DNA of 64,000 nt, taken from Oceanihabitans sp. 2_MG-2023 (GTDB lineage: Bacteria > Bacteroidota > Bacteroidia > Flavobacteriales > Flavobacteriaceae). A program made the position numbers and the translations under genes. Below, piece after piece: positions 8,153 to 25,907 of this stretch; position 1 is the stretch's first letter; each line of letters starts with the position of its first letter. The DNA lies in assembly GCF_030547245.1 (NCBI RefSeq), contig NZ_JAUOQT010000001.1, forward strand, positions 186,001 through 250,000, given 5' to 3'. The notes beneath the pieces were generated by a model. That model was not told the origin of the DNA. It searched no databases and saw only the letters and a program-made list of their open reading frames with translations.

Positions 8153-8201
8153 GTTTAATCTTTAAAAGTATATTACGTATCCAGTGCGGAATGACAAATA
8201 A

Positions 8202-10121
8202 TTATATTTTTGTGGTTAGCAACAAACTTCCTCTTTCGTTTAAGATAATTTCATCTTCCCAAACAAAAGTTTCATTCGTTACTATATTTTTTAATGTTTT
8301 ACCTTGTAAACCAACTTCTTCAAAACGTTTTAAATCTAAACTAATTGGTTCATTATTTTTATTAATAATATGTACAACAGTTTCGCCTTCAATAACTCGA
8401 AATAAAAAGTACGTTCCCATAAAAGGTGCAAAATGAATGGTTTTTCCATTATGGATGGCAGCACTTGATTTTCTGTAATTCAATACTTTTTTAAGGAATA
8501 GCTGCATGTCTTTTTGTGCATCTGTTAAACCTTCACCAGAAAATGTATTGACAGTATCTCCTTGCCAACCTCCTGGGAAATCGGTACGAATTAAACCATG
8601 GTCGCCAGGTTTTTCAAAATCGTTCATTAAAATTTCTGTTCCGTAATATAGTTGCGGAATTCTAGGTAAGGTTAATAGATAACTTAAGGCCATTTTGGTA
8701 TTAGGCACATCTCCTTTTAATTGTGTAAAAATGCGACTCATATCATGATTGTCTGGAAAAACCATAATGTCTTTTGGTGATGCATAGGCAAAATCGTTAG
8801 CTAAACCTTCGTATATTTTCACCAATCCTGTGTCCCATTGTTCGGCTTCATTTAAAGCATCCACCGTATTTTTTTGCATGGCAAAATCCATGGTCGATCT
8901 TAAATTAGAATCGTAACCATCTTTATTGTCATGACCTTCTTGCCAATAGGCAATTAACAACGGATTGGTACTCCATTCTTCACCAACAATACTAAAGTTA
9001 GGATACTCATTCATGATAGCTCCTGCCCAATTAGACATAAAAGTTTTATCAGGATACGGATAGGTATCTTGACGAATTCCGCTAAGGTTTAATGTTTCCA
9101 CCCACCAAATACTATTTTGTATAATATAATTAGCCATAAACGGATTACGCTGATTTAAATCTGGCATTGCAGACACAAACCAACCTTCTGCCATTTCTTT
9201 TTTATCGCGTTTGGAAGCATATAAATCTTGGTTACTCGTACGTCTGTGGTTGGAGTTATTTAATGGTTTATTATTCTCAAAACTTTCTTGCTGATTGACC
9301 CAATCTTTAAACGGTAAATCTTCCATCCACCAATGTGCACTTCCGCAATGATTAGCCACTTGATCCATAATTAAACCGATACCTTTTTCTTTCGCTTTTG
9401 CAGCTAATTCTTGGTATTCTTCTAAGCTTCCGTAACGTGGATCTACTTGGTAAAAATCGGTCATGGCGTAACCATGATACGACGACCTTGACATGTCGTT
9501 AGTCAATAAAGGACACGACCAAATTTGAGTAAACCCCATATCTTCTATATAATCTAAATGCTGAATAATACCTTGTAAATCACCACCATGACGCGCATAA
9601 TCATCTTCTCTGTTGATGGTTTTTTCCTTTAAACTTTCGTTTATATCATTAGAAGTATCACCATTTGCAAAACGATCTGGAGTGATTAAATAAATGGCAT
9701 CTGTACTATCAAAACCTTGATAATCGGAAGCCTCTTTTACACGCGCTTTTACTTCGTAGGTTTGAACAAGGTCTTTTTCTTCATTAAATTTAAAATGAAT
9801 ATTGAATTGTCCTGCTTTAGCACTTTCTGAAATATGTAGATCTAAAAACAGATAATTAGGACTATCTGCTTTATGCACTTTTTCAATAGAAACTCCTGCA
9901 TAATTTATACTAGGTGTTGCTTCCGAAATATTAACATGCTTCACCAATAATTGTACTTGTGTATTATTAAAACCTGTCCACCAATGTGGTGGTTCGATGC
10001 GCTCGATATCGTTTATAACTTCGGTTACAACTTCAGAAGGTATTGCTTTTTTGGTTTCCTTTTTACAAGAAAAACTAACACTAATTAAAACGATTAATGA
10101 TATGTGTATTAATTTTTTCAT
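8202..10121 (-). CDS. GH13 cyclomaltodextrinase/neopullulanase-like lipoprotein (639 aa)
   Basis: A GH13 enzyme with the architecture of Bacteroidota SusA-like cyclomaltodextrinases. The lipobox is SVSFSC (Cys19). The N-terminal immunoglobulin-like domain (about 42-130) begins PPHWWTGF and matches the Cyc-maltodext_N type. The barrel starts near 140 and a C-terminal beta domain follows. Catalytic residues are D352 (GIRQD), E381 (VGEEW) and D460 (DNHD); MDQVANHCG is region I. It is expected to act on cyclodextrins, pullulan or maltodextrins in the periplasm. It is the first GH13 after the GH65 gene (19 nt) and precedes the GH31 fusion by 49 nt. Confidence 0.92.
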   Translation of the reverse strand: MKKLIHISLIVLISVSFSCKKETKKAIPSEVVTEVINDIERIEPPHWWTGFNNTQVQLLVKHVNISEATPSINYAGVSIEKVHKADSPNYLFLDLHISESAKAGQFNIHFKFNEEKDLVQTYEVKARVKEASDYQGFDSTDAIYLITPDRFANGDTSNDINESLKEKTINREDDYARHGGDLQGIIQHLDYIEDMGFTQIWSCPLLTNDMSRSSYHGYAMTDFYQVDPRYGSLEEYQELAAKAKEKGIGLIMDQVANHCGSAHWWMEDLPFKDWVNQQESFENNKPLNNSNHRRTSNQDLYASKRDKKEMAEGWFVSAMPDLNQRNPFMANYIIQNSIWWVETLNLSGIRQDTYPYPDKTFMSNWAGAIMNEYPNFSIVGEEWSTNPLLIAYWQEGHDNKDGYDSNLRSTMDFAMQKNTVDALNEAEQWDTGLVKIYEGLANDFAYASPKDIMVFPDNHDMSRIFTQLKGDVPNTKMALSYLLTLPRIPQLYYGTEILMNDFEKPGDHGLIRTDFPGGWQGDTVNTFSGEGLTDAQKDMQLFLKKVLNYRKSSAAIHNGKTIHFAPFMGTYFLFRVIEGETVVHIINKNNEPISLDLKRFEEVGLQGKTLKNIVTNETFVWEDEIILNERGSLLLTTKI

Positions 10122-10140: not shown

Positions 10141-12447
10141 TTAAATTTTTACCAAATTATTTGGTGAAACAGTTATTGGATTATCATTTACAAGAATGTT
10201 TAAATCTGTATTTCCTTCTAACTCGAAAGTAGTTTCTGCTTGCGATACATTTACTTTTAAAATTTGATCTCTAAAATTCACTTTAAACGAGTATGCATCC
10301 CATTCTTTAGGAATACGAGGTTCAAAATGTAGCATATCCTTTTTAACACGCATACCACCAAAACCTTCCACAATACTCATCCAGGTTCCAGCCATACTTG
10401 TAATATGTAGACCTTCTTCAACTTCTTTATTATAGTCATCTAAATCCAAACGAGAAGTACGCAAATAAAATGTATACGCTTGGTCCATTTGATCTAATTT
10501 AGCTGCTTGAATACTATGCACACAAGGTGAAAGTGAACTTTCATGCACAGTAAATGGTTCGTAAAAATCGAAATGACGTTTTAATTCTTCGGTAGAAAAT
10601 TGATCTTCAAAAAAGTACAATCCTTGTAAGGTATCTGCTTGTTTGATGTAAGGCGAACGCAAAATACGATCCCAACTCCACTTTTGGTTTATTGGTCTAT
10701 CGGCTTTTGGTAAATCTGCTACAGTAATTAATTCTTTATCTAAAAAACCATCTTGTTGTAAGTACACTTGATGTTTTTCCGAATATGGAAAAAACATATT
10801 ATCTGCTACTTTTTTCCAAGCATGAAGCTCCTGATCTGTAATTTTTGTTTTACCAGAAATACGTAAATAATCGTCGTGATGACCTTCTTTTACTTTCTCG
10901 ATATTTTCTAATGCGTAATCAATGCACCATTTAGCTAAATAGTTGGTGTAAAAATTATTATTGATGTTGTTTTCATATTCGTTAGGACCAGTAACACCTA
11001 AAATAACATACTTGTTTTTATCTGTAGAAAAAGTGGCACGTTGTTGCCAAAATCTAGCAATTCCGATAAGGACTTCTAACCCCATTTCTGGAATATAACT
11101 GTAATCTCCTGTGTAGCGATAGTAGTTAAAAATAGCGAAAGCTATGGCTCCATTTCTATGAATTTCTTCGAAAGTAATTTCCCATTCGTTATGGCATTCT
11201 TCCCCATTCATGGTTACCATTGGATATAATGCCGCTCCATTTTTGAAGCCTAATTTTTGAGCATTTTCTATCGCTTTTTCTAAATGGTTATAACGGTATT
11301 CTAACAAACTTCTTGCAACTTTCTGGTCTTTAGTTGCCATATAAAAAGGGATGCAATATGCTTCGGTATCCCAATAGGTACTTCCTCCATATTTTTCTCC
11401 AGTAAATCCTTTTGGACCAATATTTAAAGTCGAGTCTTTTCCTAAATAGGTTTGGTTTAATTGAAAAATATTAAAACGAATACCTTGTTGTGCTTTTACA
11501 TCACCATCGATGGTAATATCTGACATTTCCCAGATTTTAGACCAAGCTTCTTTTTGATTATTTAAAAGGGCACTGAATCCTAAATTGGAAGCAGTATCTA
11601 GAGCTTTTTTAGCAGCTATCACTAATTGATTTTTATTGTGATTTCTATCTACTGTATAACCACCAAATTTTTGAATGCTAGCAGTTTGGTCTGTATTTAC
11701 AGAAACGACATATGTGAATGCTATAGAATTTTCTTGTTTATCTATTTCTGGAACCTGCTCTTGTTTTGTATTATTTACAAAAACCGAAGACTGCATAAAT
11801 GTACAGGTATGGAAAGCCGTTTTCATGGTTTTTGCTTCAATAAACGCTTGCTCGTTTTCTGTACTTACGTTTAAAGTATCCCAAAATTGGTCGTCCCAAT
11901 TGGTATCTTCATTAGTAATTCCGGCATCTAAATACGGTTGAAATCTAATGGTAGCTTCTCCGTTTAAAGGTGTTACTTGGTAATTAATCGCTCCAATTTC
12001 GTCTAAATCTAAACTTAAAAAACGAAGCACTTTTACTTCTACTTCTAATTTATTTTGAAGGATTGCAGTAAACGATCTAGATAACCAACCTTCTTTCATG
12101 TTAAGCTCTCTTTTAAAATTAGAAACTGAAACACAAGTATTTAAATCTAGTTGTTCGCCATTAATTTCGACATGAATACCAATCCAATTTGGTGCATTTA
12201 AAACTTTTGCAAAATACTCTGGATAGCCATTTTTCCACCAACCAACTCTGGTTTTGTCCGGATAATAAACACCTGCAATGTAGCTTCCTTGAAAGGTTGG
12301 ACCTGAATAATGCTCTTCAAAATTAGCACGTTGTCCCATAGCTCCATTACCTATGCTGAATAAACTTTCAGATGATTTAACGCGATCTGCATCAAAACCT
12401 TCTTCAATTATAGACCAATTGTCTGGTTGTATATAATCTTGATTCAT
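10141..12447 (-). CDS. Maltose phosphorylase-like GH65 enzyme
   Basis: A family 65 glycoside phosphorylase: maltose plus phosphate gives glucose and beta-glucose 1-phosphate in the cytoplasm. I chose the ATG at 12447 (768 aa, MNQDYIQPDNW) rather than a TTG 21 nt upstream, because the N-terminus WSIIEEGFD is the family's usual start and an A-rich leader precedes it. The general acid is E490 in GVTGPNEYE. WDTEAYCIPFY and the phosphate-loop HESSLSP are visible. No signal peptide is present, as expected. The next upstream gene is pgmB, whose product uses beta-glucose 1-phosphate, which supports maltose phosphorylase over trehalose or kojibiose phosphorylase. Confidence 0.9.
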   Translation of the reverse strand: MNQDYIQPDNWSIIEEGFDADRVKSSESLFSIGNGAMGQRANFEEHYSGPTFQGSYIAGVYYPDKTRVGWWKNGYPEYFAKVLNAPNWIGIHVEINGEQLDLNTCVSVSNFKRELNMKEGWLSRSFTAILQNKLEVEVKVLRFLSLDLDEIGAINYQVTPLNGEATIRFQPYLDAGITNEDTNWDDQFWDTLNVSTENEQAFIEAKTMKTAFHTCTFMQSSVFVNNTKQEQVPEIDKQENSIAFTYVVSVNTDQTASIQKFGGYTVDRNHNKNQLVIAAKKALDTASNLGFSALLNNQKEAWSKIWEMSDITIDGDVKAQQGIRFNIFQLNQTYLGKDSTLNIGPKGFTGEKYGGSTYWDTEAYCIPFYMATKDQKVARSLLEYRYNHLEKAIENAQKLGFKNGAALYPMVTMNGEECHNEWEITFEEIHRNGAIAFAIFNYYRYTGDYSYIPEMGLEVLIGIARFWQQRATFSTDKNKYVILGVTGPNEYENNINNNFYTNYLAKWCIDYALENIEKVKEGHHDDYLRISGKTKITDQELHAWKKVADNMFFPYSEKHQVYLQQDGFLDKELITVADLPKADRPINQKWSWDRILRSPYIKQADTLQGLYFFEDQFSTEELKRHFDFYEPFTVHESSLSPCVHSIQAAKLDQMDQAYTFYLRTSRLDLDDYNKEVEEGLHITSMAGTWMSIVEGFGGMRVKKDMLHFEPRIPKEWDAYSFKVNFRDQILKVNVSQAETTFELEGNTDLNILVNDNPITVSPNNLVKI

Positions 12448-12576
12448 TTTATTTTGTTTGAGAATCAAGAATCAAGAATATAGACCACTTACTTTTTGAC
12501 TACTTCTTTACTTCTTGATTATTTATTTTTTATGGAAAGGATGAAAACAGAAATTGCAATTCTCCTTTCTATTATT

Positions 12577-13233
12577 TTATCTATTTATTAATTCTTGGAT
12601 GAAGCTATTTTCAATTTCGGTGAAATCTGAAAAAATATAATCTGCTTCATGCAATACTTCTTTTTTCCCAATACCAATGGATATCATATTTGCTGTATTT
12701 GCAGCTTGTACACCTGCTACAGAATCTTCGAATACGATACAGTTTTCTAGTTTTATATTTAAATGTTTTGCAGCAATTAAAAACACTTCAGGGTCTGGTT
12801 TTGCGTTGCTAACATCATTTCCATCTACAATAGCATTAAACTTTGAAAGTAAATTCACTTTTTCTAAAATTGGCCTTGCATTTTTACTGGCAGAGCCTAA
12901 CGAAATTGGTTGTTCTTTTTGTATTAAATAATTTAAAATTTTTGGAACATCTGGTAGAATTTCTTTGTCGTCCATTTTAGCGATATAGCTTAAATATTCT
13001 TCATTTTTCTTCAACATTAAAGCTTTGAATTGGGTTTCAGAAATAGTTTTATTTCCCCATGCTAATATTTTTTCTAATGATTTTACACGACTAACTCCTT
13101 TAAGTTGTTCATTTTGTTCGTGTGTAAAATCTATATCTATACTTTTAGCTAGCTCTTTCCATGCTAAAAAGTGATATTTTGCGGTATCTACAATAACACC
13201 GTCTAAATCGAATATAAATCCTTTTTTATTCAT
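12577..13233 (-). CDS. pgmB: Beta-phosphoglucomutase
   Basis: A HAD-superfamily mutase of 218 residues, the usual family length. It converts beta-glucose 1-phosphate to glucose 6-phosphate in the cytoplasm. The nucleophile D9 and acid/base D11 sit in FDLDGVIVDTAKYH. The motif SLGSASKNA and the metal site FEDSVAGVQAA are present. It starts 2 nt after the MFS transporter and is followed by the GH65 phosphorylase 129 nt on, forming a phosphorolytic maltose pathway. A phosphatase of the same fold is possible, but context and the conserved cap make PgmB the best call. Confidence 0.9.
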   Translation of the reverse strand: MNKKGFIFDLDGVIVDTAKYHFLAWKELAKSIDIDFTHEQNEQLKGVSRVKSLEKILAWGNKTISETQFKALMLKKNEEYLSYIAKMDDKEILPDVPKILNYLIQKEQPISLGSASKNARPILEKVNLLSKFNAIVDGNDVSNAKPDPEVFLIAAKHLNIKLENCIVFEDSVAGVQAANTANMISIGIGKKEVLHEADYIFSDFTEIENSFIQELINR

Positions 13234-13235
13234 TT

Positions 13236-14609
13236 TTAAATTTCTTCTGCTTGATATGTAATTGCATTTTTATTTGTGATTAACAAGTTGCAAAGCCCTG
13301 CAATTATTAGACTTATTCCTGCAACCGTCATGGCATTAATTGCCTCTTCTCCTAATAATCCGGAAACAAAATTAATTCCGCCTAAGGCTGCAATAATTTG
13401 TGGGATAACAATAAACATGTTAAAGATTCCCATAATAACACCCATTTTCTTTGGATCTACCGAACTAGATAACATAGCATAAGGCATAGAAAGAATACTT
13501 CCCCAAGCAAAGCCAATTAATACAAAACACCATTTTAAATTTTCTGGTGAAGTGTAGCTCATTAATAAGAAACCTAAACCTCCTAATATTAAAGAGCCTA
13601 AATGTACTAGCTTTCGGTTTATGCGTTTTTTGGAAGTATAAAAGGTTAATAAAAGTGCGAAGGCCATGGAAGACAATCCATAGACTCCCATAGCAGAACC
13701 TACAGCGTTTGAAGATTCTTGAAATGCTGTATTTGCGACTTTAAAAGCTTCAGCTTGAACAGCATTCGCCATGTTATATGCACTTTCAACTGGAGCTGGC
13801 GTATTAAATACATGCTCGGTAAGTGCTGGATTTGCCATACTCCACATCGTAAAAAATGCAAACCAAGAAAAGAATTGAATCACACCTAACTTTTTCATGG
13901 TTAGTGGCATGTTTCCAATATTATTTAAAATATCTGGAATGAATTGATTTTTCTTCGCTTTTTCTTTTTCGAATTCTTCCATGTCTTCTGGAGGATACTC
14001 GGTAGTAGTAAAAACGGTATATAAAATACTTACTAAAAACACAAAAGCTCCTATAGCAAAGGCTACTTTTACAGACATTGGGACCACACCTGAAGCAGCT
14101 TCATTACTAACTCCTAATTGAGAAACAAGCCAAGGTAAGTTACTAGCAACCCAAGTACCAATTCCTATAATAAGGGTTTGCATAACAAATCCGTAAGAAC
14201 GTTGTGATTCTGGAAGTTTATCAGCAACTAAGGCTCGAAATGGCTCCATAGAAATATTTATGGATGCATCGAGAATCCATAAAAACCCTGCTGCCACCCA
14301 TAGTGCTGGAGAATGTGGTACGAAAAACAATGCAATAGAACTTAAAATAGCTCCTATTAAAAAATAAGGTCTTCGTCTTCCCCATTTGGCACTCCAAGTT
14401 CTATCACTTAGATACCCAATAATTGGTTGTACTAATAAACCGGTTAGAGGTGCTGCAATCCATAATAATGGAATGGCATCTTTTTCTGCTCCTAATGTTT
14501 GAAAAATTCGAGACATAAAGCCTCCTTGTAGTGCAAATCCGAATTGAATTCCTAAAAAACCGAAACTCATGTTCCAGATTTCCCAAAAACCTAATGCGCG
14601 CTTTTTCAT
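13236..14609 (-). CDS. MFS sugar transporter (GPH/SLC45-like), probable maltose carrier
   Basis: A 457-residue inner-membrane protein with about 12 hydrophobic segments. It carries the MFS loop signature DRTWSAKWGRRRPY after the second segment, as in SLC45 or sucrose/maltose carriers, and a charged central loop near residues 205-225. It is expected to bring maltose or short maltodextrins from the periplasm to the cytoplasm by cation symport. It is the first structural gene of the minus-strand operon, followed 2 nt later by pgmB. Upstream lies an intergenic region with a long inverted repeat, and then the LacI regulator. The substrate is inferred from context. Confidence 0.85.
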   Translation of the reverse strand: MKKRALGFWEIWNMSFGFLGIQFGFALQGGFMSRIFQTLGAEKDAIPLLWIAAPLTGLLVQPIIGYLSDRTWSAKWGRRRPYFLIGAILSSIALFFVPHSPALWVAAGFLWILDASINISMEPFRALVADKLPESQRSYGFVMQTLIIGIGTWVASNLPWLVSQLGVSNEAASGVVPMSVKVAFAIGAFVFLVSILYTVFTTTEYPPEDMEEFEKEKAKKNQFIPDILNNIGNMPLTMKKLGVIQFFSWFAFFTMWSMANPALTEHVFNTPAPVESAYNMANAVQAEAFKVANTAFQESSNAVGSAMGVYGLSSMAFALLLTFYTSKKRINRKLVHLGSLILGGLGFLLMSYTSPENLKWCFVLIGFAWGSILSMPYAMLSSSVDPKKMGVIMGIFNMFIVIPQIIAALGGINFVSGLLGEEAINAMTVAGISLIIAGLCNLLITNKNAITYQAEEI

Positions 14610-14743: not shown

Positions 14744-15784
14744 TTATTTGGTAGATTTTCTTTCTATTAATTCTGTTTCAATTACTACCGTTTCATAGAC
14801 ATCTTCTTCATCTTCTCTTTCTAAATTATTAATCAATAATTCGGCGGCTTTTTCGCCTATTTTTTTACCATGCTGACTTACGGTTGTTAAAGCTGGCACA
14901 GCGTGTTTAGACAATACTCCATCTGTAAAACCTACAATTTGTATATCCTCTGGTATTTTAAAACCTAACTTTCTTGCTACTTTCATTGCAGTAATGGCAT
15001 ACAACTCATTTACAGCAAAAACACCATCGATATTTTTATTGTTTTTAAATAAATTTTCTATTTCTATTTCTAAAGAATCTAGGTGGTCTTCGGATAATAA
15101 TTGATCATGTACTTTTAATATTAAACTAGATTCTGGACTCATTTTATGGTCTTCTAGTGCTTCTAAATAGCCTTGTGTTCTTAATTTTCCTACACTTACA
15201 TAATCCTTAGTAGTAACAATCGCTATGTTTTTACAACCACATTGAATTAGCTTATTTACTGCAAGCTTTGCACCTTCGGCATCATCTACTATCACTTTAT
15301 CACATTTTATATCGTTAACCACACGATCAAACATTACAATTGGCATACCTTGATTAATGGTTTCTGTAAAATGATGATAATCTTGCTGTTGTTGCGTTTC
15401 TTTGGCTATAGATAATATAAAGCCATCAATACTACCATTGGCTAACATTTCCATATTAATAACCTCTTTAGCAAAAGACTCGTTAGACAAACCTACAATT
15501 ACATTATAACCTCTTTTATTAGCTACTGCTTCAATACCACTAATCACCTTGGAGAAAAAATGATGCACAATTTCTGGAATAATTATACCAATAGTTTTAG
15601 TTTTTCTATTCTTTAAACTAAGTGCTATATTATTAGGTCTGTAATTATATAATTTTGCAAATGCTTGCACTTTTTGACGTGTATCTTCACTAATTTCAAT
15701 GCTATTTCTTAATGCTTTAGATACTGTCGAAATAGATACATCTAATTCTCTTGCTATCTGTTTTAAGGTGACTTTTCGTTTCAT
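14744..15784 (-). CDS. LacI/GalR-family transcriptional regulator
   Basis: A 346-residue DNA-binding repressor or activator. The N-terminal helix-turn-helix (about residues 5-27, VTLKQIARELDVSISTVSKA) and hinge are followed by a periplasmic-binding-protein-like effector domain (about 60-340, starting TIGIIIPEIVHHFF). It stands between the minus-strand catabolic operon and the divergent susC operon, so it is the likely controller of both. A palindrome of the LacI-operator type lies in the intergenic region. The effector (maltose or a derivative) is inferred. Confidence 0.92.
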   Translation of the reverse strand: MKRKVTLKQIARELDVSISTVSKALRNSIEISEDTRQKVQAFAKLYNYRPNNIALSLKNRKTKTIGIIIPEIVHHFFSKVISGIEAVANKRGYNVIVGLSNESFAKEVINMEMLANGSIDGFILSIAKETQQQQDYHHFTETINQGMPIVMFDRVVNDIKCDKVIVDDAEGAKLAVNKLIQCGCKNIAIVTTKDYVSVGKLRTQGYLEALEDHKMSPESSLILKVHDQLLSEDHLDSLEIEIENLFKNNKNIDGVFAVNELYAITAMKVARKLGFKIPEDIQIVGFTDGVLSKHAVPALTTVSQHGKKIGEKAAELLINNLEREDEEDVYETVVIETELIERKSTK

Positions 15785-16007: not shown

Positions 16008-18917
16008 ATGAAAACAAAACTAAATAGTTTATTGTTTTTTCTACTAATTTTCCCTTTGTGCATGGTAGCACAAAACACAGTAAAAGGAACAGTAACTGAA
16101 CAATCTTCCTCTTTACCACTTCCTAGTGTGAATGTGATTATAAAAAACACATCTAAAGGAACTGCAACAGATTTTGATGGATTATATGAAGTTAATGTTA
16201 ATAACGGAGACGTTTTAGTATTTTCTTACATTGGGTTTATTTCGCAAGAGATTGTTTATAACGGACAACAAACCATAAATATTAACTTAATTGAAGATAC
16301 TTCAAGTTTAGATGAAGTTGTAGTTATTGGTTATGGTACTGTAAAAAAAGAAGACTTAACTGGTACTACAGATTTAGTAACAAGTGATGACTTTAACAAA
16401 GGCCCTATTGTATCTGCACAATCCCTTATTAGTGGTAAAGTAGCAGGTGTAAATGTAACTTCTGGAAGTGGAGCTCCTGGTGATGGACAAAACATTACTA
16501 TTCGTGGAATAGGATCTTTATCTTTAACTTCAGAACCTTTATATGTTATAGATGGTGTGCCAATAGACAACTCTGGTGTTGGTGGATCTAGAAACCCATT
16601 AAACTTTATTAACCCAAATGATATTGAAACTTTTGTAGTTTTAAAGGATGCATCATCTGCAGCTATTTATGGTTCTAGAGCAGCTAATGGTGTGATACTT
16701 ATTACCACAAAAAAAGGAAAAGACAGAGACTTTAAATATAATTTTAGTGCCCAAACAACGGTATATAATCCTGTTGATGACATTGATGTTCTTTCTGCTT
16801 CAGAATTTAACGGGTTAATTAATGAGATAGGAAGTCCAACTCAAATTGGGTTACTAGGAAACGCGAATACGGATTGGCAAGATGAAATTTACACAACCGC
16901 ATTCGGTCAAGACTATAACTTTAATGCATTAGGAAGCGCTTTTGGAATTCCAATGAGAGCTTCAATTGGGCATTCGGATCATGATGGTATACTAAAAGGA
17001 GATAACATCCAACGTACAACTGGATCGATTAGTTTAACTCCTTCTTTATTAGATGACCATTTAAAAGTACAGTTAAATGCTAGGGCAGTTTATACCGAAA
17101 ACACTTTTGCTAATAGAGATGCTATTGGAAGTGCTATTGGTTTCGACCCTACTCAATCTATTTATGATTCAAGTTCTCAATATGCAGGTTACTTTGCATG
17201 GTTAGATAATGGTACTGGTAATCAAAATAACTTAGCTCCAACAAATCCTGTTGCATTATTAAACTTAGTAGACGATACATCTGAAGTTAGACGTTTTGTT
17301 GGAAATGCAAAATTTGACTATAAGATTCATGGTTTCGAAGACTTAACAGCTACTGTTAATTTAGGATATGATACTTCTAATAGTCATGGTAGAAAAATAA
17401 CTTCAGAGTTTATTCCAACTTCCGACGCAACTTTTAATGGAGCTAGAACAAGTTATATTCAAAATTCATTTAATAAACTTTTAGATGCTTACTTAACGTA
17501 CAATAAATCTTTTAAAGAAATACATAATTTAACTGTTGCTGCAGGACATGTTTTCCAATCTTTTGAATATGACAATTACAGTTACGATAGCGAAAACGAA
17601 GAAGATGGTGTACAATTCGAATTTGAAGACCCATCTAAAAATGTATTATTATCGTACTTTGGAAGATTAAATTACGATTATGATGGAAAATACTATGTAA
17701 CTGCTTCGTTAAGAGCAGATGCTTCTTCTAAATTAAACCCAGATGATCAGTGGGGGTACTTTCCTTCTGCAGCTGTAGCTTGGAGTATTCATAAAGAAGA
17801 TTTCATGGAAAATTCATTTTTTAACGAATTAAAACTTCGTGTTGGTTATGGTGAGATTGGAAATATAAATGGTTTAGGAGATTACGGTTTCTTAACGAGA
17901 TATTTAGGAAGTACAGATACTGCTAATTATCAATTTGGAAGTACTTTCTACCAAACCTACAGACCAGAACCTATCAATAAAGACTTACGTTGGGAAGTAG
18001 GTAAAACCTTTAACTTAGGTTTAGATTATGCTTTTGTTAATAGACGTATTTCTGGTTCTATTAATGCATATAGAAAAGAAACAGAAGATCTAATTGCTAG
18101 TTCTTTAGTAGATCCTTTTACCAATTTTGGTAACCGAATAGATGCCAACATTGGTAATATGGTAAATAAAGGTTTAGAATTTAATTTAAATGTAATACCT
18201 TTTAGAACAGATGATTTTGAGTGGTCTATTAACTACAACATATCTTTAAATGATAATGAAATCACGAAACTTTCTGTAGACCAACCAACTGGAGGCATTT
18301 CTACAGGAGTAGGAAATAATGTTCAGGTGCAAAGAGTAGGTGAAACTGCTAACAGTTTTTACGTATATGAACAAGTATATGACGAAAATGGAACGCCATT
18401 AGAAGGTGTATTTGTAGATAGAAATGGAGATGACGTGATTAATGATGAAGATAAGTATATTAAAGAAGATCCTTTTGGAGATATTTTAATGGGATTAAAC
18501 ACCAATGTAAGCTACAAAAACTGGGATTTGTCTATACAATCTAGAGCTAGTCTTGGAAACTACATGTACAATGATGTAGCTGCTAACAGAGGGGTTTTAG
18601 CGAATGCTACAAATAACAACATATTATCTAACATACACTCCGATTATTATAATACTGGTTTTACTATAATAGATGGAGACACTGCTTTAAGTGATCATTT
18701 TGTAGAAGAAGCGTCTTTCTTTAAATTAGATAATATAACACTTGGTTATACTTTAAACAAAATAAAAAACACCACTTTAAGATTATATGGATCTGTGCAA
18801 AACGTTTTTACAATAACAGATTACGACGGTTTAGATCCTGAAATAAATTTAGGTATAGATAATAATTTTTACCCAAGACCAAGATCTTTTGTAATGGGTG
18901 TAAACATTGATTTTTAA
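16008..18917 (+). CDS. SusC-like TonB-dependent outer-membrane receptor
   Basis: A 969-residue outer-membrane transporter for glucan oligosaccharides, energised by TonB. A signal peptide (1-22) is followed by a carboxypeptidase-regulatory-like domain (about 23-96), the TonB-box region EVVVIGYG (103-110), a plug (about 115-225, with NITIRGIGSL and YVIDGVPIDNSG) and a large beta-barrel ending in aromatic residues (VNIDF). Length and order are typical of SusC. It is the first gene of the plus-strand operon, 12 nt before susD, and diverges from the LacI gene. The substrate is inferred from the surrounding amylases. Confidence 0.95.
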   Translation: MKTKLNSLLFFLLIFPLCMVAQNTVKGTVTEQSSSLPLPSVNVIIKNTSKGTATDFDGLYEVNVNNGDVLVFSYIGFISQEIVYNGQQTININLIEDTSSLDEVVVIGYGTVKKEDLTGTTDLVTSDDFNKGPIVSAQSLISGKVAGVNVTSGSGAPGDGQNITIRGIGSLSLTSEPLYVIDGVPIDNSGVGGSRNPLNFINPNDIETFVVLKDASSAAIYGSRAANGVILITTKKGKDRDFKYNFSAQTTVYNPVDDIDVLSASEFNGLINEIGSPTQIGLLGNANTDWQDEIYTTAFGQDYNFNALGSAFGIPMRASIGHSDHDGILKGDNIQRTTGSISLTPSLLDDHLKVQLNARAVYTENTFANRDAIGSAIGFDPTQSIYDSSSQYAGYFAWLDNGTGNQNNLAPTNPVALLNLVDDTSEVRRFVGNAKFDYKIHGFEDLTATVNLGYDTSNSHGRKITSEFIPTSDATFNGARTSYIQNSFNKLLDAYLTYNKSFKEIHNLTVAAGHVFQSFEYDNYSYDSENEEDGVQFEFEDPSKNVLLSYFGRLNYDYDGKYYVTASLRADASSKLNPDDQWGYFPSAAVAWSIHKEDFMENSFFNELKLRVGYGEIGNINGLGDYGFLTRYLGSTDTANYQFGSTFYQTYRPEPINKDLRWEVGKTFNLGLDYAFVNRRISGSINAYRKETEDLIASSLVDPFTNFGNRIDANIGNMVNKGLEFNLNVIPFRTDDFEWSINYNISLNDNEITKLSVDQPTGGISTGVGNNVQVQRVGETANSFYVYEQVYDENGTPLEGVFVDRNGDDVINDEDKYIKEDPFGDILMGLNTNVSYKNWDLSIQSRASLGNYMYNDVAANRGVLANATNNNILSNIHSDYYNTGFTIIDGDTALSDHFVEEASFFKLDNITLGYTLNKIKNTTLRLYGSVQNVFTITDYDGLDPEINLGIDNNFYPRPRSFVMGVNIDF

Positions 18918-18929
18918 TAAAAAAGAAAA

Positions 18930-20825
18930 ATGAAAAATTTAATTAAACAAATATTCTTCGTAACCATACTATCTACATTATTTGTAGGGTGTCACGACGA
19001 ATTAGATCAGTCACCGACGGATCCAGACAGTTTTACAGAAGAGGATGTATTTGCAAATGCTACTGAAGCTAAAGGAGCATTAGCTAAACTTTACGCTAGT
19101 TTAGCGCTTACAGGTCAAGATGGACCTGCCGGTCAAGCAGATATTTCAGATATTGATGAAGGATTTTCTCAATACTCAAGAATGCTTTTTAACCTTAATG
19201 AATTAACTACAGATCATGCTGTTGTTGGTTGGGGAGATGCAGGATTACCGGATCTACATGGTCAATATTGGTCTGGAAGTAACGACTTTACAGAAGCAAT
19301 GTATTATAGACTAGCACAAGAAGTCTCTTTTTGTAATTCATTTATTGCCAATGCTAGTGTATTATCTGATGAAGAAGTAACTTCTTTTATTGCAGAAGCA
19401 CGCTTTTTAAGAGCATTCGCTTACTACAACTTAATAGATTTATATGGAAATGTACCTTTAGTAACAGAAGTAACTACAGATTTACCTTTACAAGCATCAA
19501 GAGCAGAATTATTTGATTTTGTAGAAACCGAATTATTAGAAATACAAGACAACTTAAAAACTAGTGGTTCTAATGAATACGGTAGAGTAGACCAAGTTGC
19601 TGCTTGGGCATTATTATCTAAACTTTATTTAAATGCTGAAGTTTGGACAGGAACTGCACGTTACACAGATTGTGTTACCTATTCTAACAACGTGATTAAT
19701 TCTTCGTATAGAATAAACACCAATGATGCTAATGGAAACGGAACAGCTTATGATGAATTATTCCTTGCAGATAATGATACTAACGGAGCACAAAACGAAT
19801 TTATTTTTGCATTAAACTTTGATGGTTTAAGATCACAAACATATGGTGGATCTACTTTTTTAGTACATGCAGCAATAGGAGGGTCTATGGATGCAACAGA
19901 ATTTGGTGTTAATGGAGGCTGGGGAGGTCTTAGAACTACTAAAAATTTAGTAGAAAAGTTTCCAGTATTAAGTCTTGCAGACTTAAATACCGCTTTAGGT
20001 ACGCAATCCGACTGGGGAATTGTTGGAGACGGAACACCTAATGGTTGGGGTGGCCCAGATACAGAAATGTACCAAACTGGCACGAATCAATTTGCTTTAT
20101 ATGCAGAATTAACAGATGGTTTCTTAAAATTTAGATTTAACGAAGATTGGGGAAATAATTATGGGGATAATGGAGCAGATGGTTCTTTAGAATCTGGTGG
20201 CGAAAATATTGCAGTTACTGCAGGAACTTATTTAATCACTTTAGACTTAGATGCTTTAACATATTCTATTATTTCATTTACTCCTACTAGTGATCAACGC
20301 GCTATGTTTTATGCAGATGGTCAAAATTTAGAAATAACAGATATTTCTGAATTTACAGAAGGATATGCAGTAACAAAATTTAAAAACATAGATAGTAATG
20401 GAAATCAAGGTGCAGATTCTGCAGGCGATTTTGTAGACACCGATTTACCTTTAATTCGTCTAGCTGAAATTTATTTTAACTATGCCGAAGCTTCGCTTAG
20501 AGGTGGTGGTGGTGATTTAAACTTAGCCTCAAATAAAATAAATGAATTATTAGAAAGAGCTACAGGCGGAACAAACGCAAACATTTCGAGTAGCGATATT
20601 ACATTAGATTATTTATTAGATGAAAGATCTAAAGAGTTATACTGGGAAGGACAAAGACGTACCGATTTAATTCGTTACGATTACTTTACAACAGACACTT
20701 ATGTATGGCCATTTAAAGGAAACGACCCTTCAGGAACTTCTGTTTCTAGCTATAGAAACTTATTTCCTTTACCTACAAGTATTATAACAGTTAACCCAAA
20801 CCTTTCTCAAAATGAAGGGTATTAA
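18930..20825 (+). CDS. SusD-like lipoprotein with an inserted SusE-type binding repeat
   Basis: A 631-residue surface lipoprotein partner of SusC that captures glucan. The lipobox is TLFVGC (Cys21). TPR-like SusD helices run from 30 to 345 (EARFLRAFAYYNLIDLYG at 156-173), and the C-terminal SusD region resumes at about 455 (RAMFYADGQ, RLAEIYFNYAEA, WEGQRRTDLIRY). Between them, residues 361-447 closely match the two binding repeats of the next gene's product (WGIVG..TPNGW, LKFRFNEDWG, NYGDNGADGSL, VTAGTY). SusD proteins are usually about 500-550 aa, so the extra length equals the insert. It is co-transcribed with susC and the susE-like gene. Confidence 0.93.
   Translation: MKNLIKQIFFVTILSTLFVGCHDELDQSPTDPDSFTEEDVFANATEAKGALAKLYASLALTGQDGPAGQADISDIDEGFSQYSRMLFNLNELTTDHAVVGWGDAGLPDLHGQYWSGSNDFTEAMYYRLAQEVSFCNSFIANASVLSDEEVTSFIAEARFLRAFAYYNLIDLYGNVPLVTEVTTDLPLQASRAELFDFVETELLEIQDNLKTSGSNEYGRVDQVAAWALLSKLYLNAEVWTGTARYTDCVTYSNNVINSSYRINTNDANGNGTAYDELFLADNDTNGAQNEFIFALNFDGLRSQTYGGSTFLVHAAIGGSMDATEFGVNGGWGGLRTTKNLVEKFPVLSLADLNTALGTQSDWGIVGDGTPNGWGGPDTEMYQTGTNQFALYAELTDGFLKFRFNEDWGNNYGDNGADGSLESGGENIAVTAGTYLITLDLDALTYSIISFTPTSDQRAMFYADGQNLEITDISEFTEGYAVTKFKNIDSNGNQGADSAGDFVDTDLPLIRLAEIYFNYAEASLRGGGGDLNLASNKINELLERATGGTNANISSSDITLDYLLDERSKELYWEGQRRTDLIRYDYFTTDTYVWPFKGNDPSGTSVSSYRNLFPLPTSIITVNPNLSQNEGY
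20010..20270 (+). repeat. SusE/F-type carbohydrate-binding repeat embedded in susD
   Basis: This codes for residues 361-447 of the SusD protein. It is homologous at protein level and visibly at DNA level (AATTATGGGGATAATGGAGC, and GGTGGCGAAAATATTGCAGT) to the two repeats of the following gene. Confidence 0.85.
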
Positions 20826-20836
20826 TAACTATTAAA

Positions 20837-21862
20837 ATGAAAAACATAATATATAAATCAATTCTTTCCTTATTTATTACTACACTATTTGTGAGTTGTG
20901 ATGATAATGAATTAACAGAATTAAACAGTAACGGAATCCCTGAAATATCACTTTCTGATAATACTGTCATTTTAACCGAAGCTAATGCAGACCAAGATGC
21001 ACTTACTATAACTTGGACAGAACCAGATTATGGTTTTGATGCTGCACCAGAAGCTTACAAAATATTAATCGACACAGTAGATGGTGATTTTACTTCTCCA
21101 CAAAGTGCAACGGCAAGTATGTCTTTGAAAACATTTACTGCGCAACAATTAAATACCCTTTTAACAGATCTAGAATTACCTCCTAACGAAGAATCTCAAG
21201 TTCAGATAAAAGTGGAAGTTGTTCTAAGTTCTATAAATAGTATTTTCTCTGAAGCAGTTAATTTAACGGTAACTCCATATCCTGCTTTATCAGACATTAG
21301 TTCTCCTTGGGGAATTGTTGGAAGTGCAACTCCTAATTCTTGGGATGGTCCAGATGTGCCTTTTTACAAAACAGAAAATGATAATGTTTTTGCTGCATAT
21401 GTATATTTATTAGACGGTGAAATCAAATTTAGAGAGAACAATGATTGGGCTGTTAATTATGGAGATACAGGAGTCGATGGTACCTTAGAAGGTGGAGGAG
21501 ATAATATTGCAGTAACTGCTGGAACCTATTATATAACCATGAATTTAAACACACTTACTTATACCATGACTGATGCTTCAAGCGAAGACATTTGGGGGTT
21601 AGTAGGTAGCTCAACACCAAATGGCTGGGATGGTACAGATTGGCCACTTTATCCTGCTGGAAATGATATTTATATAACGTACGTAACATTACTAGATGGA
21701 GAACTAAAATTTAGACTTAATAATGATTGGGGTGTAAATTATGGAGATACTGGAGTCGATGGTACTCTAGATTCTGGAGGAGATAATATAGTGGTAACTG
21801 CAGGAAGCTATAAAATTACCATGGACTTGTTTAATCAAACCTACACAATAGAGTTAAATTAA
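20837..21862 (+). CDS. SusE-like glucan-binding lipoprotein with two tandem binding repeats
   Basis: A 341-residue outer-surface lipoprotein (lipobox TLFVSC, Cys21) that probably binds starch for the SusC/D complex. A SusE-type immunoglobulin-like domain (about 33-146, PEISLSDNTVILTEANADQDALTITW region) precedes two repeats at 157-244 and 252-339. Each repeat has WG[IL]VG, TPN.WDG, a DGE[IL]KFR..NDW core, VNYGDTGVDGTL and VTAG.Y.IT. The conserved tryptophans are candidate sugar platforms. It begins 11 nt after susD. Classical SusE is 387 aa, so this is a short member. A hairpin follows the gene. Confidence 0.88.
   Translation: MKNIIYKSILSLFITTLFVSCDDNELTELNSNGIPEISLSDNTVILTEANADQDALTITWTEPDYGFDAAPEAYKILIDTVDGDFTSPQSATASMSLKTFTAQQLNTLLTDLELPPNEESQVQIKVEVVLSSINSIFSEAVNLTVTPYPALSDISSPWGIVGSATPNSWDGPDVPFYKTENDNVFAAYVYLLDGEIKFRENNDWAVNYGDTGVDGTLEGGGDNIAVTAGTYYITMNLNTLTYTMTDASSEDIWGLVGSSTPNGWDGTDWPLYPAGNDIYITYVTLLDGELKFRLNNDWGVNYGDTGVDGTLDSGGDNIVVTAGSYKITMDLFNQTYTIELN
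21305..21853 (+). repeat. Two tandem carbohydrate-binding repeats in the susE-like gene
   Basis: Repeat 1 spans 21305-21568 and repeat 2 spans 21590-21853, 88 codons each. They remain very similar in DNA (GGAGTCGATGGTAC and GGAGATAATAT occur in both), suggesting a fairly recent duplication. Confidence 0.85.
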
Positions 21863-21993: not shown

Positions 21994-24828
21994 ATGAAAA
22001 AAATAATTTATTTAATAATGCTGCTAGGTGTATTTAACACTTATGCACAAATATCCTGGCAAGGAGGGAACAATCCCGAAGAAACAGATGCCGCCACTAT
22101 ACTTTTTGATAAAACAGGAACAGGTTTAGAATCTTATTCTGGAACCATATATGCACACACAGGAGTAACTATAGACGATAGTTCAGATTGGCAAAACGTT
22201 ATTGGTAGTTGGGGAAATAATACAACACAACCTGCTTTAACTCTAGTTTCTGGAAACATATATAAACTAGACTTAACTTCAACAATTAGAAATTTCTATA
22301 ACTATACTGGTGCTGGAACAGTAACTGCTATTAATATTGTACTTAGAAGTGCGGATGGCACACAACAAACTACAGATTTACAAATAGCTGTCGGTTCTTT
22401 TCAAGTTACTATGATAAACCCTAGTGATAGCAATAGCACTATAGCTGTAAATTCAGGAGCTGGCACACAAATTCTAGCACAAAACACTAATGGGAATGCG
22501 ACATACGAATTAAAAGCAAATGGAGCTACCATAAATACAACAACTACTTCATTTTACAGTTATTTTATATCTGGTATTACGGAGAACCTTAATTGTGAAC
22601 TAATTGTAACACAAGGCAGTGCTTCCGTATCTAAATATTTTAACATATTAGTAAATAACACCCAAAGTCAAACACTACCAAGTGGTTTAGAAAATGGAAT
22701 AAATTACACAAGTAATACTTCAGCAACACTTGTTTTAGAAGCTCCTAACAAAGATTTTGTATACGTAGCAGGAAGCTTTAATAACTGGAATCCTGATGCT
22801 AATTATGCCATGAAAAAAGATACTGCTTCCGATAAATTCTGGTTAGAAATTACAGGTTTAACAAGTAACCAGATTGAAACGTATCAATATTGGGTAGTAG
22901 ACCAAACTCCTATTACTAATTCCCCAGCAATGGTAAAAACCGCAGACCCGTTTTCAACCTTAGTATTATCCCCTTTTGATGATCCTTGGATTTCTTCAAC
23001 AACGTATCCAAATTTACCTGTTTATCCATCTGGACAAGAACGGGAAGTAACAGTTTTACAGACTGGGCAAGTAGATTATCCTTGGGTAGTTACAGATTTT
23101 GAAAAACCTAAAAAAGAAGATTTAGTAATCTACGAAGTATTAATTAGAGATTTTGATGAAGACATGAATTATCAAGACCTAATTGACAAAATAGATTATT
23201 TTAAAAACTTAAATGTAAACGCAATTGAGTTGATGCCTATCATGGAGTACGAAGGAAATGAAAGCTGGGGATACAACACTTCTTTTCACATGGCGTTAGA
23301 TAAATTTTATGGTACAGAAAATAAACTTAAAGAGTTTATAGACTTATGTCACCAAAATGGTATCGCTGTAATTTTGGATGTAGCACTAAATCATGCATTT
23401 GGTAGAAACCCAATGAATAGAATGTGGATGGAGGATGCAGATGGCGATGGTTGGGGAGAACCAAGTAGCGAAAACCCATATTTTAATCAAGTAGCACAAC
23501 ATAGTTATAGTGTTGGTTCCGATTTTAATCACCAATCTACTCTAACACAATATTATGTAGAACGAGTGGTTAAACATTGGATCGAAGAATTTAAAATTGA
23601 TGGTTTCCGTTGGGATTTAACTAAAGGATTTACTCAAAATGCCGAAGGAAGTGAAACGAATACCAATGCTTATCAAGCAGATCGTGTTGCTATTTTAAAA
23701 GAGTATGCAGATTACTCTTGGTCTTTAGATGAAACACATTATGTTATTTTTGAACATTTAGGTTTTGGAGGAAGCGCACAAGAAGAAACAGAGTGGGCGA
23801 ACTACAGACTTAATGAAAGCGTATCAAAAGGTATTATGCTTTGGGGGAAATTAACAAATCCTTATAACCAATTAACAATGGGTTATAACTCTGATAATAA
23901 CTTTGACGGAATGGGCCATGTTAGTAGAGGCTTTAATGCTCCTAGATTAGTTGGTTATGCAGAGAGTCATGACGAAGAACGCTTAATGTACAAAAACGTA
24001 CAATATGGTAATGCTTCTAATACTTCGCACGATGTAACAGATTTAAATACTGCAATCTCAAGAATGTCTGCTTTAGGTGCTGTAAGTTTAACCATTCCTG
24101 GTCCTAAAATGATTTGGCATTTTGGGGAGTTAGCTATGGAAAACTCCATATTCACTTGTAATAATGGAACCGTGAATGATCCAGATTGTAAATTAGACAC
24201 AAAACCACAACCACAATGGGTAGATAACTGGGATACAGACCCTACACGAAGTCAAGTGTACAACGATTGGTCTAGAATGAATTACTTAAAAATAAACGAA
24301 CCTGTTTTTGAAGGAGATTACACCATCACTTCAGGAAGTTTAACACCTAGAATCGATATTTTTGATACTTCTATTCCAACTACACAATTAAGAAACGTTA
24401 TTGTTTTAGCAAACTTTGATGTGGTTGCCCAAACTGTTAATACTAGCTTCCCTTCTAGTGGAACTTGGTACGATTTAATGGATGAAACTGGTAACACTAC
24501 AATTGAATCAACTGTTGCAACCATTAATATACCAGCAGGACAATTTAGAATTTTTGGTAACCATGCTTCTACTTTAAGTATTGATGACTTGGAAAATGTT
24601 TCCGATTTAAAGCTACACCCAAACCCAACAAAAAATTCATTTAAATTAAATAAAGAGGTTACAGATGTTCAAATATTTGATATTTCAGGAAAACTAGTAA
24701 AAGAATACAAAGGCGATTTTTCTAAAAACGCATCTTTTAATATATCCGAATTATCAAAAGGCATGTATCTAGTTAAAGTTAAAAACATGTTAGAACAAAT
24801 AAGCACCACTAAACTAATTAAATTTTAA
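21994..24828 (+). CDS. T9SS-exported multidomain GH13 alpha-amylase (944 aa)
   Basis: A cell-surface or secreted starch-degrading enzyme. Residues 1-19 are a signal peptide. An N-terminal beta domain (20-135, starting ISWQGGNNPEETDAA) of a type seen in Bacteroidota amylases is followed by another beta domain (136-222) and a CBM48-like module (about 245-325, FVYVAGSFNNWNP). The GH13 barrel spans about 374-800 with D541 (GFRWD), E587 (VIFEHLG) and D660 (ESHDEE); DVALNHAFG is region I. A type-A T9SS sorting domain (about 865-944, HPNPTKNSF...) ends in KLIKF. It lies 131 nt after the susE-like gene behind a hairpin. It probably makes the oligosaccharides that SusCD imports. Confidence 0.93.
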   Translation: MKKIIYLIMLLGVFNTYAQISWQGGNNPEETDAATILFDKTGTGLESYSGTIYAHTGVTIDDSSDWQNVIGSWGNNTTQPALTLVSGNIYKLDLTSTIRNFYNYTGAGTVTAINIVLRSADGTQQTTDLQIAVGSFQVTMINPSDSNSTIAVNSGAGTQILAQNTNGNATYELKANGATINTTTTSFYSYFISGITENLNCELIVTQGSASVSKYFNILVNNTQSQTLPSGLENGINYTSNTSATLVLEAPNKDFVYVAGSFNNWNPDANYAMKKDTASDKFWLEITGLTSNQIETYQYWVVDQTPITNSPAMVKTADPFSTLVLSPFDDPWISSTTYPNLPVYPSGQEREVTVLQTGQVDYPWVVTDFEKPKKEDLVIYEVLIRDFDEDMNYQDLIDKIDYFKNLNVNAIELMPIMEYEGNESWGYNTSFHMALDKFYGTENKLKEFIDLCHQNGIAVILDVALNHAFGRNPMNRMWMEDADGDGWGEPSSENPYFNQVAQHSYSVGSDFNHQSTLTQYYVERVVKHWIEEFKIDGFRWDLTKGFTQNAEGSETNTNAYQADRVAILKEYADYSWSLDETHYVIFEHLGFGGSAQEETEWANYRLNESVSKGIMLWGKLTNPYNQLTMGYNSDNNFDGMGHVSRGFNAPRLVGYAESHDEERLMYKNVQYGNASNTSHDVTDLNTAISRMSALGAVSLTIPGPKMIWHFGELAMENSIFTCNNGTVNDPDCKLDTKPQPQWVDNWDTDPTRSQVYNDWSRMNYLKINEPVFEGDYTITSGSLTPRIDIFDTSIPTTQLRNVIVLANFDVVAQTVNTSFPSSGTWYDLMDETGNTTIESTVATINIPAGQFRIFGNHASTLSIDDLENVSDLKLHPNPTKNSFKLNKEVTDVQIFDISGKLVKEYKGDFSKNASFNISELSKGMYLVKVKNMLEQISTTKLIKF

Positions 24829-24914: not shown

Positions 24915-25907
24915 CTATAGGTTTACTGCAATTGTTTTTGTACGAAAACTTGTTTTATCTTTACTTTTAATTCTTTCCAATAATAACTTGGCAGCCTCTT
25001 TACCAATCTCTTTAGCGTTTTGATTTATTACAATAAGAGATGCATCATATTTTAATTGCATTTCATTACAAAACCCAGCTATAGATATATTACTGTCCTC
25101 TTTTTGCAACTTATTAGTTAACAGAATAGCATGTAAAACACTTTTTTCATTTAAACCAAAAACCCCATCAACACTAGTATCTTTTTTTAATAATTCTTTT
25201 AGCTTCTGCTTCAACCCTTTAGATCTTTCATCGGTAATAACCGTACATTTCACAATGGACTTATGTTTTTCTATTGCAGCTTCAAATCCTTTTTGTCTTA
25301 AATTTAAATGATGTAGATTATTCATTTTTGAAGTGATAACTATATGCTTACAACCTCTATTTTTTATAAGAAATTCTGTTGCATCAAAAGCAGCTTGAAA
25401 ATCATCAGTTATTACTTTATCACATTCCAACTCATCACATATCCTATCAAACATAACTATAGATGTTCCATTATCTAACAATGTTTTAATATGTTGGTAT
25501 TTCTTTTTTTGTTCCGCTTCTTTAGAAATACAAATAATTAATCCATCAACAAAACCACTGGACATAACCGATATATTTTTGGTTTCCTTTTCTATTAGAT
25601 CATTAGAGATCGATGTAATTAGTTTATATCCATTATCATCTAAATACGTTTCTACTCCAACTAAAACCTTTGCATAAAACGGATTTAAAATATTTGGTAT
25701 AATTAAACCTATCGTACTTGTCGTTCCTTTTCTAAAACTAGATGCAAAACTATTTGGAGTATAATTATTTGCTTTTGCGTATTCTAAAACTCTCTTTTTT
25801 GTTTGAACACCAATTTCTGGACTATCGGAAAGTGCTTTAGATACTGTAGAAACCGAAATCTCTAAAGCTTGAGCAATAGAAGCTAATGTTGTTCTGTTTG
25901 TTTGCAT
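24915..25907 (-). CDS. Second LacI/GalR-family transcriptional regulator
   Basis: A 330-residue regulator with an N-terminal helix-turn-helix (about 6-28, TTLASIAQALEISVSTVSKA) and a sugar-sensing PBP-like domain (TIGLIIPNILNPFYAKVLVG). It is paralogous to the regulator at 14744-15784, sharing SVSTVSKAL, FDRI/FDRV and the CDKVI-DD region. It lies at the far end of the susCDE-amylase operon, convergent with the amylase. It may control the plus-strand operon, or a different branch of glucan use; the sequence does not decide. An inverted repeat upstream may be its own operator. Confidence 0.9.
   Translation of the reverse strand: MQTNRTTLASIAQALEISVSTVSKALSDSPEIGVQTKKRVLEYAKANNYTPNSFASSFRKGTTSTIGLIIPNILNPFYAKVLVGVETYLDDNGYKLITSISNDLIEKETKNISVMSSGFVDGLIICISKEAEQKKKYQHIKTLLDNGTSIVMFDRICDELECDKVITDDFQAAFDATEFLIKNRGCKHIVITSKMNNLHHLNLRQKGFEAAIEKHKSIVKCTVITDERSKGLKQKLKELLKKDTSVDGVFGLNEKSVLHAILLTNKLQKEDSNISIAGFCNEMQLKYDASLIVINQNAKEIGKEAAKLLLERIKSKDKTSFRTKTIAVNL

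Follow-up and report, generated by a model that had tools for sequence, protein, structure and literature searches.

The window, a 64,000-nucleotide stretch of DNA from a marine bacterium, encodes an alpha-glucan SusD with one SusE-type, starch-binding-like repeat in a loop a short way past the canonical tryptophan W331. In most accounts of the importer, SusD lids and the SusE/F surface binders are distinct components. Here, the lid protein that passes starch to the importer itself bears a domain of a starch-binding type that normally belongs to another protein encoded next to it, and relatives seem to have acquired such an insertion at this position on more than one occasion. As a whole, we consider it probable that the SusE-type repeat in the SusD loop forms a putative second glucan site on the lid, that the insertion has an old, single origin in Flavobacteriaceae, and that other families made insertions of their own.

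A SusE-type repeat inside the SusD of an alpha-glucan locus

The window contains an alpha-glucan utilisation locus, with minus-strand genes from GH65 to a LacI-type regulator, plus-strand susC, susD, susE and GH13, and then a second LacI-type regulator. The features are as follows (amino acids of SusD in parentheses):

10141-12468, minus strand: GH65 (NCBIfam, above curated cut-off)
12577-13233, minus strand: beta-phosphoglucomutase (NCBIfam, above curated cut-off)
13236-14609, minus strand: GPH-like sugar transporter (NCBIfam similarity, below cut-offs)
14744-15784, minus strand: LacI-type regulator (NCBIfam similarity, below cut-offs)
16008-18917, plus strand: susC, partner barrel of the lid, directly upstream of susD (TIGR04056, 730 bits, above cut-off)
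18930-20825, plus strand: susD, alpha-glucan-type lipoprotein with insert, 631 aa, frame intact (PF07980, PF14322; alignment to PDB SusDs 3ck7 and 3jys; Foldseek with the AF2 model)
19230-19232, plus strand: W101 of the SusD core, aligned to Bacteroides SusD W98 (W in 50/50 one-domain and 17/17 two-domain SusDs)
19920-19922, plus strand: W331 of the SusD core, aligned to Bacteroides SusD W320 (W in 50/50 one-domain and 17/17 two-domain SusDs)
19962-20285, plus strand: extra stretch relative to insert-free SusDs, linkers included (aa 345-452; 86-SusD alignment and insert-free same-genus SusD)
19974-19997, plus strand: N-terminal linker helix before the insert domain (aa 349-356; AF2 secondary structure)
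20001-20276, plus strand: SusE-type beta-sandwich domain (aa 358-449; BLASTP to SusE repeats, AF2, Foldseek to starch-binding domains)
20046-20048, plus strand: W373, putative glucan-binding Trp of the insert (W in 35/35 Flavobacteriaceae inserts)
20127-20150, plus strand: K400, R402 and W407, putative glucan-binding residues of the insert (each in 35/35 Flavobacteriaceae inserts)
20837-21862, plus strand: susE, 341 aa, two repeats at about 21290-21577 and 21575-21859 (PF14292 74 bits, PF16411 52.6 bits, both above cut-off)
21994-24828, plus strand: GH13 alpha-amylase-like enzyme with T9SS tail (PF00128 and PF18962, above cut-off)
24915-25907, minus strand: second LacI-type regulator (NCBIfam similarity, below cut-offs)

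Two Pfam models place the protein in the SusD/RagB family (PF07980, 108.4 bits against a cut-off of 23.1; PF14322, 48.4 bits against 27). The NCBIfam model for alpha-glucan SusD, NF033071, gives 455 bits in two stretches, which is below its curated cut-off of 725, and the protein is therefore not filed under that exception-level model. A candidate lipoprotein cysteine, C21, follows the signal peptide and is invariant across 70 aligned SusDs. Residues W101, Y305 and W331 align to W98, Y296 and W320 of Bacteroides thetaiotaomicron SusD, which we take, for both numbering and role, to be the aromatic arc of the binding site. Residues R84, W101 and W331 are retained in all 67 inserted SusDs, and the window SusD keeps its canonical site residues beside the insert. 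The AF2 model of the whole protein finds B. thetaiotaomicron SusD 3ck9 (TMt 0.84) and 3jys (TMt 0.90) in the PDB by Foldseek. The B. thetaiotaomicron structures (3ck7-3ckc, 3ck9) and 3jys share with the window SusD the core fold, the aligned Trp/Tyr/Trp positions and the SusC partner, but their loop is free of any SusE-type domain.

The preliminary description of this locus, made from the sequence, held that residues 361-447 of SusD are homologous to the two repeats of the adjoining SusE and are flanked on both sides by SusD sequence, and both statements are borne out. By BLASTP, residues 341-447 match SusE with 54% identity over 108 columns (E 6e-31) and, in a second match, 53% over 103 columns (E 1e-29). 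The 54% match lies at SusE 145-244, and PF16411 matches SusE at 160-235. The likeness extends to the DNA, with an identity of 70% across 223 nt (E 9e-26) and of 76% across 124 nt. The PDB SusDs 3jys and 3ck7 align to the flanks only, at residues 44-345 or 24-344 and then at 453-631, and skip the insert. The closest comparison comes from the genus, where a SusD match at E 1e-20 was found in five of seven genomes, the window's included. One insert-free SusD (G004) aligns at residues 1-344 (77%) and 453-631 (70%), with 3 bases between the two pieces. Another SusD (G005) is 90% identical to that of the window and has the insert, itself 89% identical, while two more distant ones (G003 and G006, 43-46%) are without it. 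The limits first proposed, 361-447, lie close to those of the predicted strands, 358-449, within an extra stretch of 345-452 relative to G004. Aligning 86 SusDs, composed of all 35 listed insert-bearing loci (the window's included) and 51 chosen insert-free ones, so that 35/86 is no frequency, places all 35 inserts at one position, after the segment aligned to LVEKF and before the one aligned to DQRAMF. The last core residue before the insert lies 13 residues after W331. As the 51 insert-free SusDs and G004 all lack the segment, the idea of an insertion holds.

The Pfam SusD_RagB match in the window SusD covers residues 289-631 and spans the insert without a break, so routine annotation would hide the insert, which is easily overlooked. 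A Pfam search gave no PF16411 row for the window SusD at E 0.1, and none for the SusDs of L193, L051 or L230. Inside other SusDs PF16411 does score, with 60 bits in L300 and 38 bits in L235, both above cut-off, and 27.2 bits in L227 against a cut-off of 27.5. The X25 model PF22058 also passes its cut-off in two of these SusDs, L300 (35 bits) and L235 (27.2 bits). On contig C26 of the window genome, a contig other than that of the locus, lies a gene for a 283-aa protein with two SusE-type repeats and a T9SS tail (L049:4413-5264, minus strand).

Predicted fold and relatives of the inserted domain

Modelled alone with AF2, the insert is predicted to form an eight-strand beta domain with a mean pLDDT of 96.7. 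It remains a separate domain in the full-protein model, with block means of 89-97 over residues 361-450 and a short helix ahead of it. Its fold resembles known starch-binding domains: the eight best Foldseek matches in the PDB are X25-2 of Sca5, SusF, the AmyP starch-binding domain (AmyP-SBD), a pullulanase and four chains of maltohexaose-producing amylase, with modest E-values of 0.026-0.48, none at or below 0.001. The proposal that the segment folds separately as a beta domain is thus supported by prediction. SusF (4fe9) is the second match (probability 1.00, E 0.034), and the X25 domains of R. bromii Sca5 and a Bacillus pullulanase (7rpy, 2wan; PF22058) are the first and fourth. These X25 domains are not known to be part of SusCD systems. 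A profile built from 40 inserts matches the dextran surface glycan-binding protein SGBPdex BT3088 with a whole-sequence E of 1.7e-6, made up of several weak stretches of which the best single one has E 0.12, and matches SusF weakly (E 0.12). The repeats of SusE and SusF (PF16411) and of BT3088 (9sji, 9sje) are homologous to, or matched by profile with, the window insert, but they reside on separate lipoproteins, whereas the window repeat lies within the susD frame.

A comparable arrangement within the Sus system is SusG, in which, according to the part of PMC11267923 that concerns it, the starch-binding module CBM58 is inserted in domain B; the host protein there is an enzyme, whereas the host of the window insert is the SusC lid. 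Alpha-glucan SusDs of North Sea Flavobacteriia, from the same kind of polysaccharide utilisation locus as the window's, have been divided into 'looped' and 'open' types in a study that describes a loop of ~17 aa near the binding site, and the passages of that study that deal with them mention no inserted domain (PMC11093988). A literature search, judged by titles and abstract openings and covering few subscription papers, found no description of a SusE-type domain inside SusD.

Conservation of the insert

Seven residues, W362, W373, D377, K400, R402, W407 and G412, are invariant in all 35 Flavobacteriaceae inserts. Four of them, W373, K400, R402 and W407, we take to be a putative glucan site by likeness to SusF-type repeats. 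Against two relatives, dN/dS is 0.06 and 0.10 for the insert and 0.08 and 0.09 for the core, rough values given a dS of 0.8-1.2. Because of these invariant residues, the core-like dN/dS and the canonical residues kept in every inserted SusD, both the canonical and the insert site look maintained in Flavobacteriaceae.

Spread and age of the insertion in Flavobacteriaceae

The same-loop insert occurs in 35 or more of the 397 Flavobacteriaceae genomes searched, 179 of which have a SusD match; the 397 were drawn from a larger group and three SusD candidates were scored per genome, making 35 a lower bound. Among the 80 named records that best match the insert-bearing query, a selection from which no frequency can be read, 48 carry the insert (47 by rule, plus the truncated L161), and the inserted isolates belong to Lacinutrix, Olleya, Winogradskyella, Psychroflexus, Lutibacter and Aureibaculum. 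Its presence across many genomes and isolate records led us to reject an assembly artefact.

The SusD cores and the inserted domains give different histories. On a SusD-core tree built with the insert columns removed and L050 as outgroup, the insert trait needs 9 changes, at least 6 of them forced by well-supported branches. A single clade of inserted cores is rejected overall (p 8e-6) and inside the two main clades (p 9e-52 and 0.003; L050, L047, L048, L129 and L130 were dropped from the within-clade tests), and one gain without loss was accordingly rejected for the cores. For the domains themselves, placing all Flavobacteriaceae inserts in one clade raises the likelihood by 105 and is not rejected (p 0.996). 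A free domain tree holds 30 of the 35 together (SH-aLRT 84), while four lie close to or among the first SusE repeats and one (L069) groups with second repeats; these tests used quick searches, one of which missed a better tree by 105 log units.

The preliminary description had proposed that the repeat was copied from this susE into this susD. Its source does appear to be a SusE-type repeat, and the protein (53-54%) and DNA (70-76%) similarity to the adjacent repeats would fit a recent duplication, as would the mean identity across 33 loci, which is slightly higher to SusE of the same locus (best repeat, 41.9%) than to SusE of other loci (38.5%). The inserts are nevertheless closer to one another, at 54.8% on average, and group together rather than with their own-locus SusE in domain trees. 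The window insert groups with other inserts, such as its 89% identical counterpart in G005, and 26 of the 34 others resemble it more than does its own best SusE repeat, at 53.1%, a value that a repeat from another locus equals. A recent local copy is thus hardly credible, and the window susE was rejected as donor. Since the inserts group together and resemble each other more than their own SusE, the insertion is older than this genome's susD/susE pair, and the best reading of the sequence comparisons is an old insertion that arose once, from a SusE-type repeat, and was afterwards lost or exchanged several times. Such repeated loss or exchange means that the domain is dispensable.

Several insert-free SusDs (L045, L085, L086, L087, L089, L091, L096, L100 and L102) are nested among inserted ones and have a very short linker, as opposed to the longer loop of most insert-free SusDs of the same main clade. 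These short linkers are possibly scars of insert loss.

Inserted SusDs in other families

A phylum sample of 395 genomes, 105 of them with a match, led to two further families, f24 and f5. We take f24 to be Balneolaceae because it holds the SusD of Rhodohalobacter halophilus (L200, identical in its core to L237). Matches were found in 23 of 92 Balneolaceae genomes, 12 with one domain, 8 with none and 3 weak or cut. Family f5, in the class Bacteroidia, has matches in 83 of 150 genomes, at least 41 of which show a two-domain pattern, and all 17 SusDs fetched from it carry two domains. The insertion occupies the same SusD loop in Flavobacteriaceae, Balneolaceae and f5. Three SusDs from records titled Chitinophagia, Chitinophagaceae or uncultured Bacteroidetes (L193, L194, L201) have one domain each. 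Altogether, the 148 SusDs analysed jointly comprise 81 with no domain, 50 with one and 17 with two (L200 repeats L237).

The two tandem domains of f5 match SusE repeats 1 and 2 in that order. Both domains keep the W-K-W residues in all 7 SusDs with an adjoining two-repeat SusE. For the 10 without one, W-K-W is present in domain 1 of none and in domain 2 of four, and as these 10 form one clade they count as one event, not ten. Downstream of the 17 two-domain SusD genes lie 7 two-repeat SusE genes and, in L307, a gene for a five-repeat protein; L310 ends with its contig, and 8 loci have no SusE-type gene recognised by the domain model within 1.5 kb on the same strand. From these counts we do not conclude that the insertion brought about the loss of SusE in f5.

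In f5 loci without a two-repeat SusE, a gene for a 584-614-aa protein with five SusF_SusE-type repeats is transcribed divergently from the ~1000-aa gene that precedes susD and is presumed to be susC (L227:724-2499, minus strand; similar in L228, L309-L311, L314, L315 and L319); the L227 protein bears a T9SS tail. Directly after the two-domain susD of L227 comes a GH53 gene (7764-9158, plus strand), unexpected for a starch locus, which makes the substrate of that f5 clade uncertain. Two 613-aa SusDs of genus g128 (L230, susD at 5814-7655, minus strand; L231, 6286-8127, plus strand) carry a different segment of 85-86 aa in this loop, which the domain model does not recognise as SusE-like. The SusD loop seems generally open to insertions.

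One insertion or several

Scored against models of 7 sequences each (the f5 models from the 7 loci with a two-repeat SusE, and with the SusE repeats of 8 loci omitted as divergent), inserts fit the SusE of their own family better than the inserts of other families: 100 bits versus at most 83 for Flavobacteriaceae, 115 versus 80 for Balneolaceae, and 122 versus 78 and 136 versus 86 for the first and second f5 domains against their own SusE repeats 1 and 2. With larger models applied to all inserts, own-family SusE was best for 12/12 Balneolaceae, 17/17 and 17/17 f5 and 34/35 Flavobacteriaceae inserts. Because this holds in three families, we lean towards several independent insertions at the same loop, and most likely Balneolaceae, with one domain, and f5, with two in tandem, each made their own from their own SusE. 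The rule has an exception that slightly lowers the weight we give it: the L193 and L201 inserts fit Flavobacteriaceae SusE repeat 1 (108 bits), with only 21 and 41 bits on SusE of their own kind, and transfer or a foreign donor is possible for these Chitinophagia-type inserts.

The competing history is a single ancient block of two SusE repeats, acquired before the families split, of which f5 kept both, Balneolaceae the first and Flavobacteriaceae the second, while other lineages lost both domains and some copies were later homogenised with SusE. The common loop would follow naturally from it, and the types of insert fit, the Balneolaceae insert being of the repeat-1 type and the Flavobacteriaceae insert scoring better with the repeat-2 models of other families than with their repeat-1 models. 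Quick searches of constrained trees with an origin shared between families gave p 0.41, and 0.07, 0.43 and 0.54 with a smaller set, none significant; the last two are for the joint clades f24I+f5I1 and f1I+f5I2, the latter with a slightly higher likelihood. (The cross-family domain set sampled insert-free Flavobacteriaceae loci down to one third for SusE repeats and omitted domains shorter than about 70 residues, the duplicate L200, and families besides f1, f3, f5, f24 and the Chitinophagia-type records.) Against a shared block stand the far better matches to own-family SusE models and the lack of any sign of recent homogenisation in Flavobacteriaceae or in Balneolaceae, where mean identity is 38.8% to own-locus SusE and 50.4% between inserts. 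Family f5 differs, its own-locus SusE being as close as, or closer than, other inserts (46.7 and 54.9% versus 43.6 and 45.3%). Overall, we regard the ancient block as rather unlikely. On the reading with separate insertions, the loop after the glucan-site tryptophan would be a reusable port where Bacteroidota have placed SusE-type domains on three or more independent occasions, so that the SusC lid came to bind starch at several sites, and most of the inserted sites would have decayed in those f5 members, forming one clade, that have no two-repeat SusE gene beside susD; we judge this combined statement somewhat better than even.

What the inserted domain may do

The likeliest reading of the insert is that it adds a second working, though putative, glucan site to the SusC lid. 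The lid would then carry two sites on the same polypeptide, and the insert site may hold a glucan chain near the canonical SusD cleft, at the mouth of the barrel. A chain so held could be retained at the lid whether or not a separate SusE docks, and local concentration and avidity would rise. Counting against this reading are the modest fold matches, the weak stretches behind the BT3088 match, the dispensability of the domain and the degraded sites of the one f5 clade. According to passages of the utilisome study (PMC7618045), SusE, SusF and SusG appear to be too many for one SusC to accommodate at the same time, and the complex for starch may be dynamic; a SusE-type domain in cis could help starch systems in which the three may not all fit one SusC.

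The insert could instead serve mainly in assembly, contacting SusE, GH13 or SusC to hold the surface complex together, with glucan binding secondary or lost. A role for SusE that does not depend on starch binding is reported (Foley 2018), the surface glycan-binding protein of the dextran system sits nearest SusD in the part of PMC7618045 that treats it, and the f5 SusDs with degraded insert sites still retain their domains. Such a role sits poorly with the invariance of seven residues, four of them putative ligand residues, in every Flavobacteriaceae insert, and with the f5 pattern, in which W-K-W persists in both domains wherever a two-repeat SusE adjoins and in both domains of none of the ten, one-clade SusDs where it does not; we hold this role to be rather improbable. 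That the segment is a neutral loop insertion without function, or an artefact of assembly, is very improbable: the loop does tolerate the unrelated stretch in the two g128 SusDs, but the insert recurs across Flavobacteriaceae genomes and named records, and its low dN/dS and invariant residues speak of constraint.

Inserted SusDs together with insert-free relatives of the same genus offer natural matched pairs for testing what a surface binder fixed to the lid contributes.
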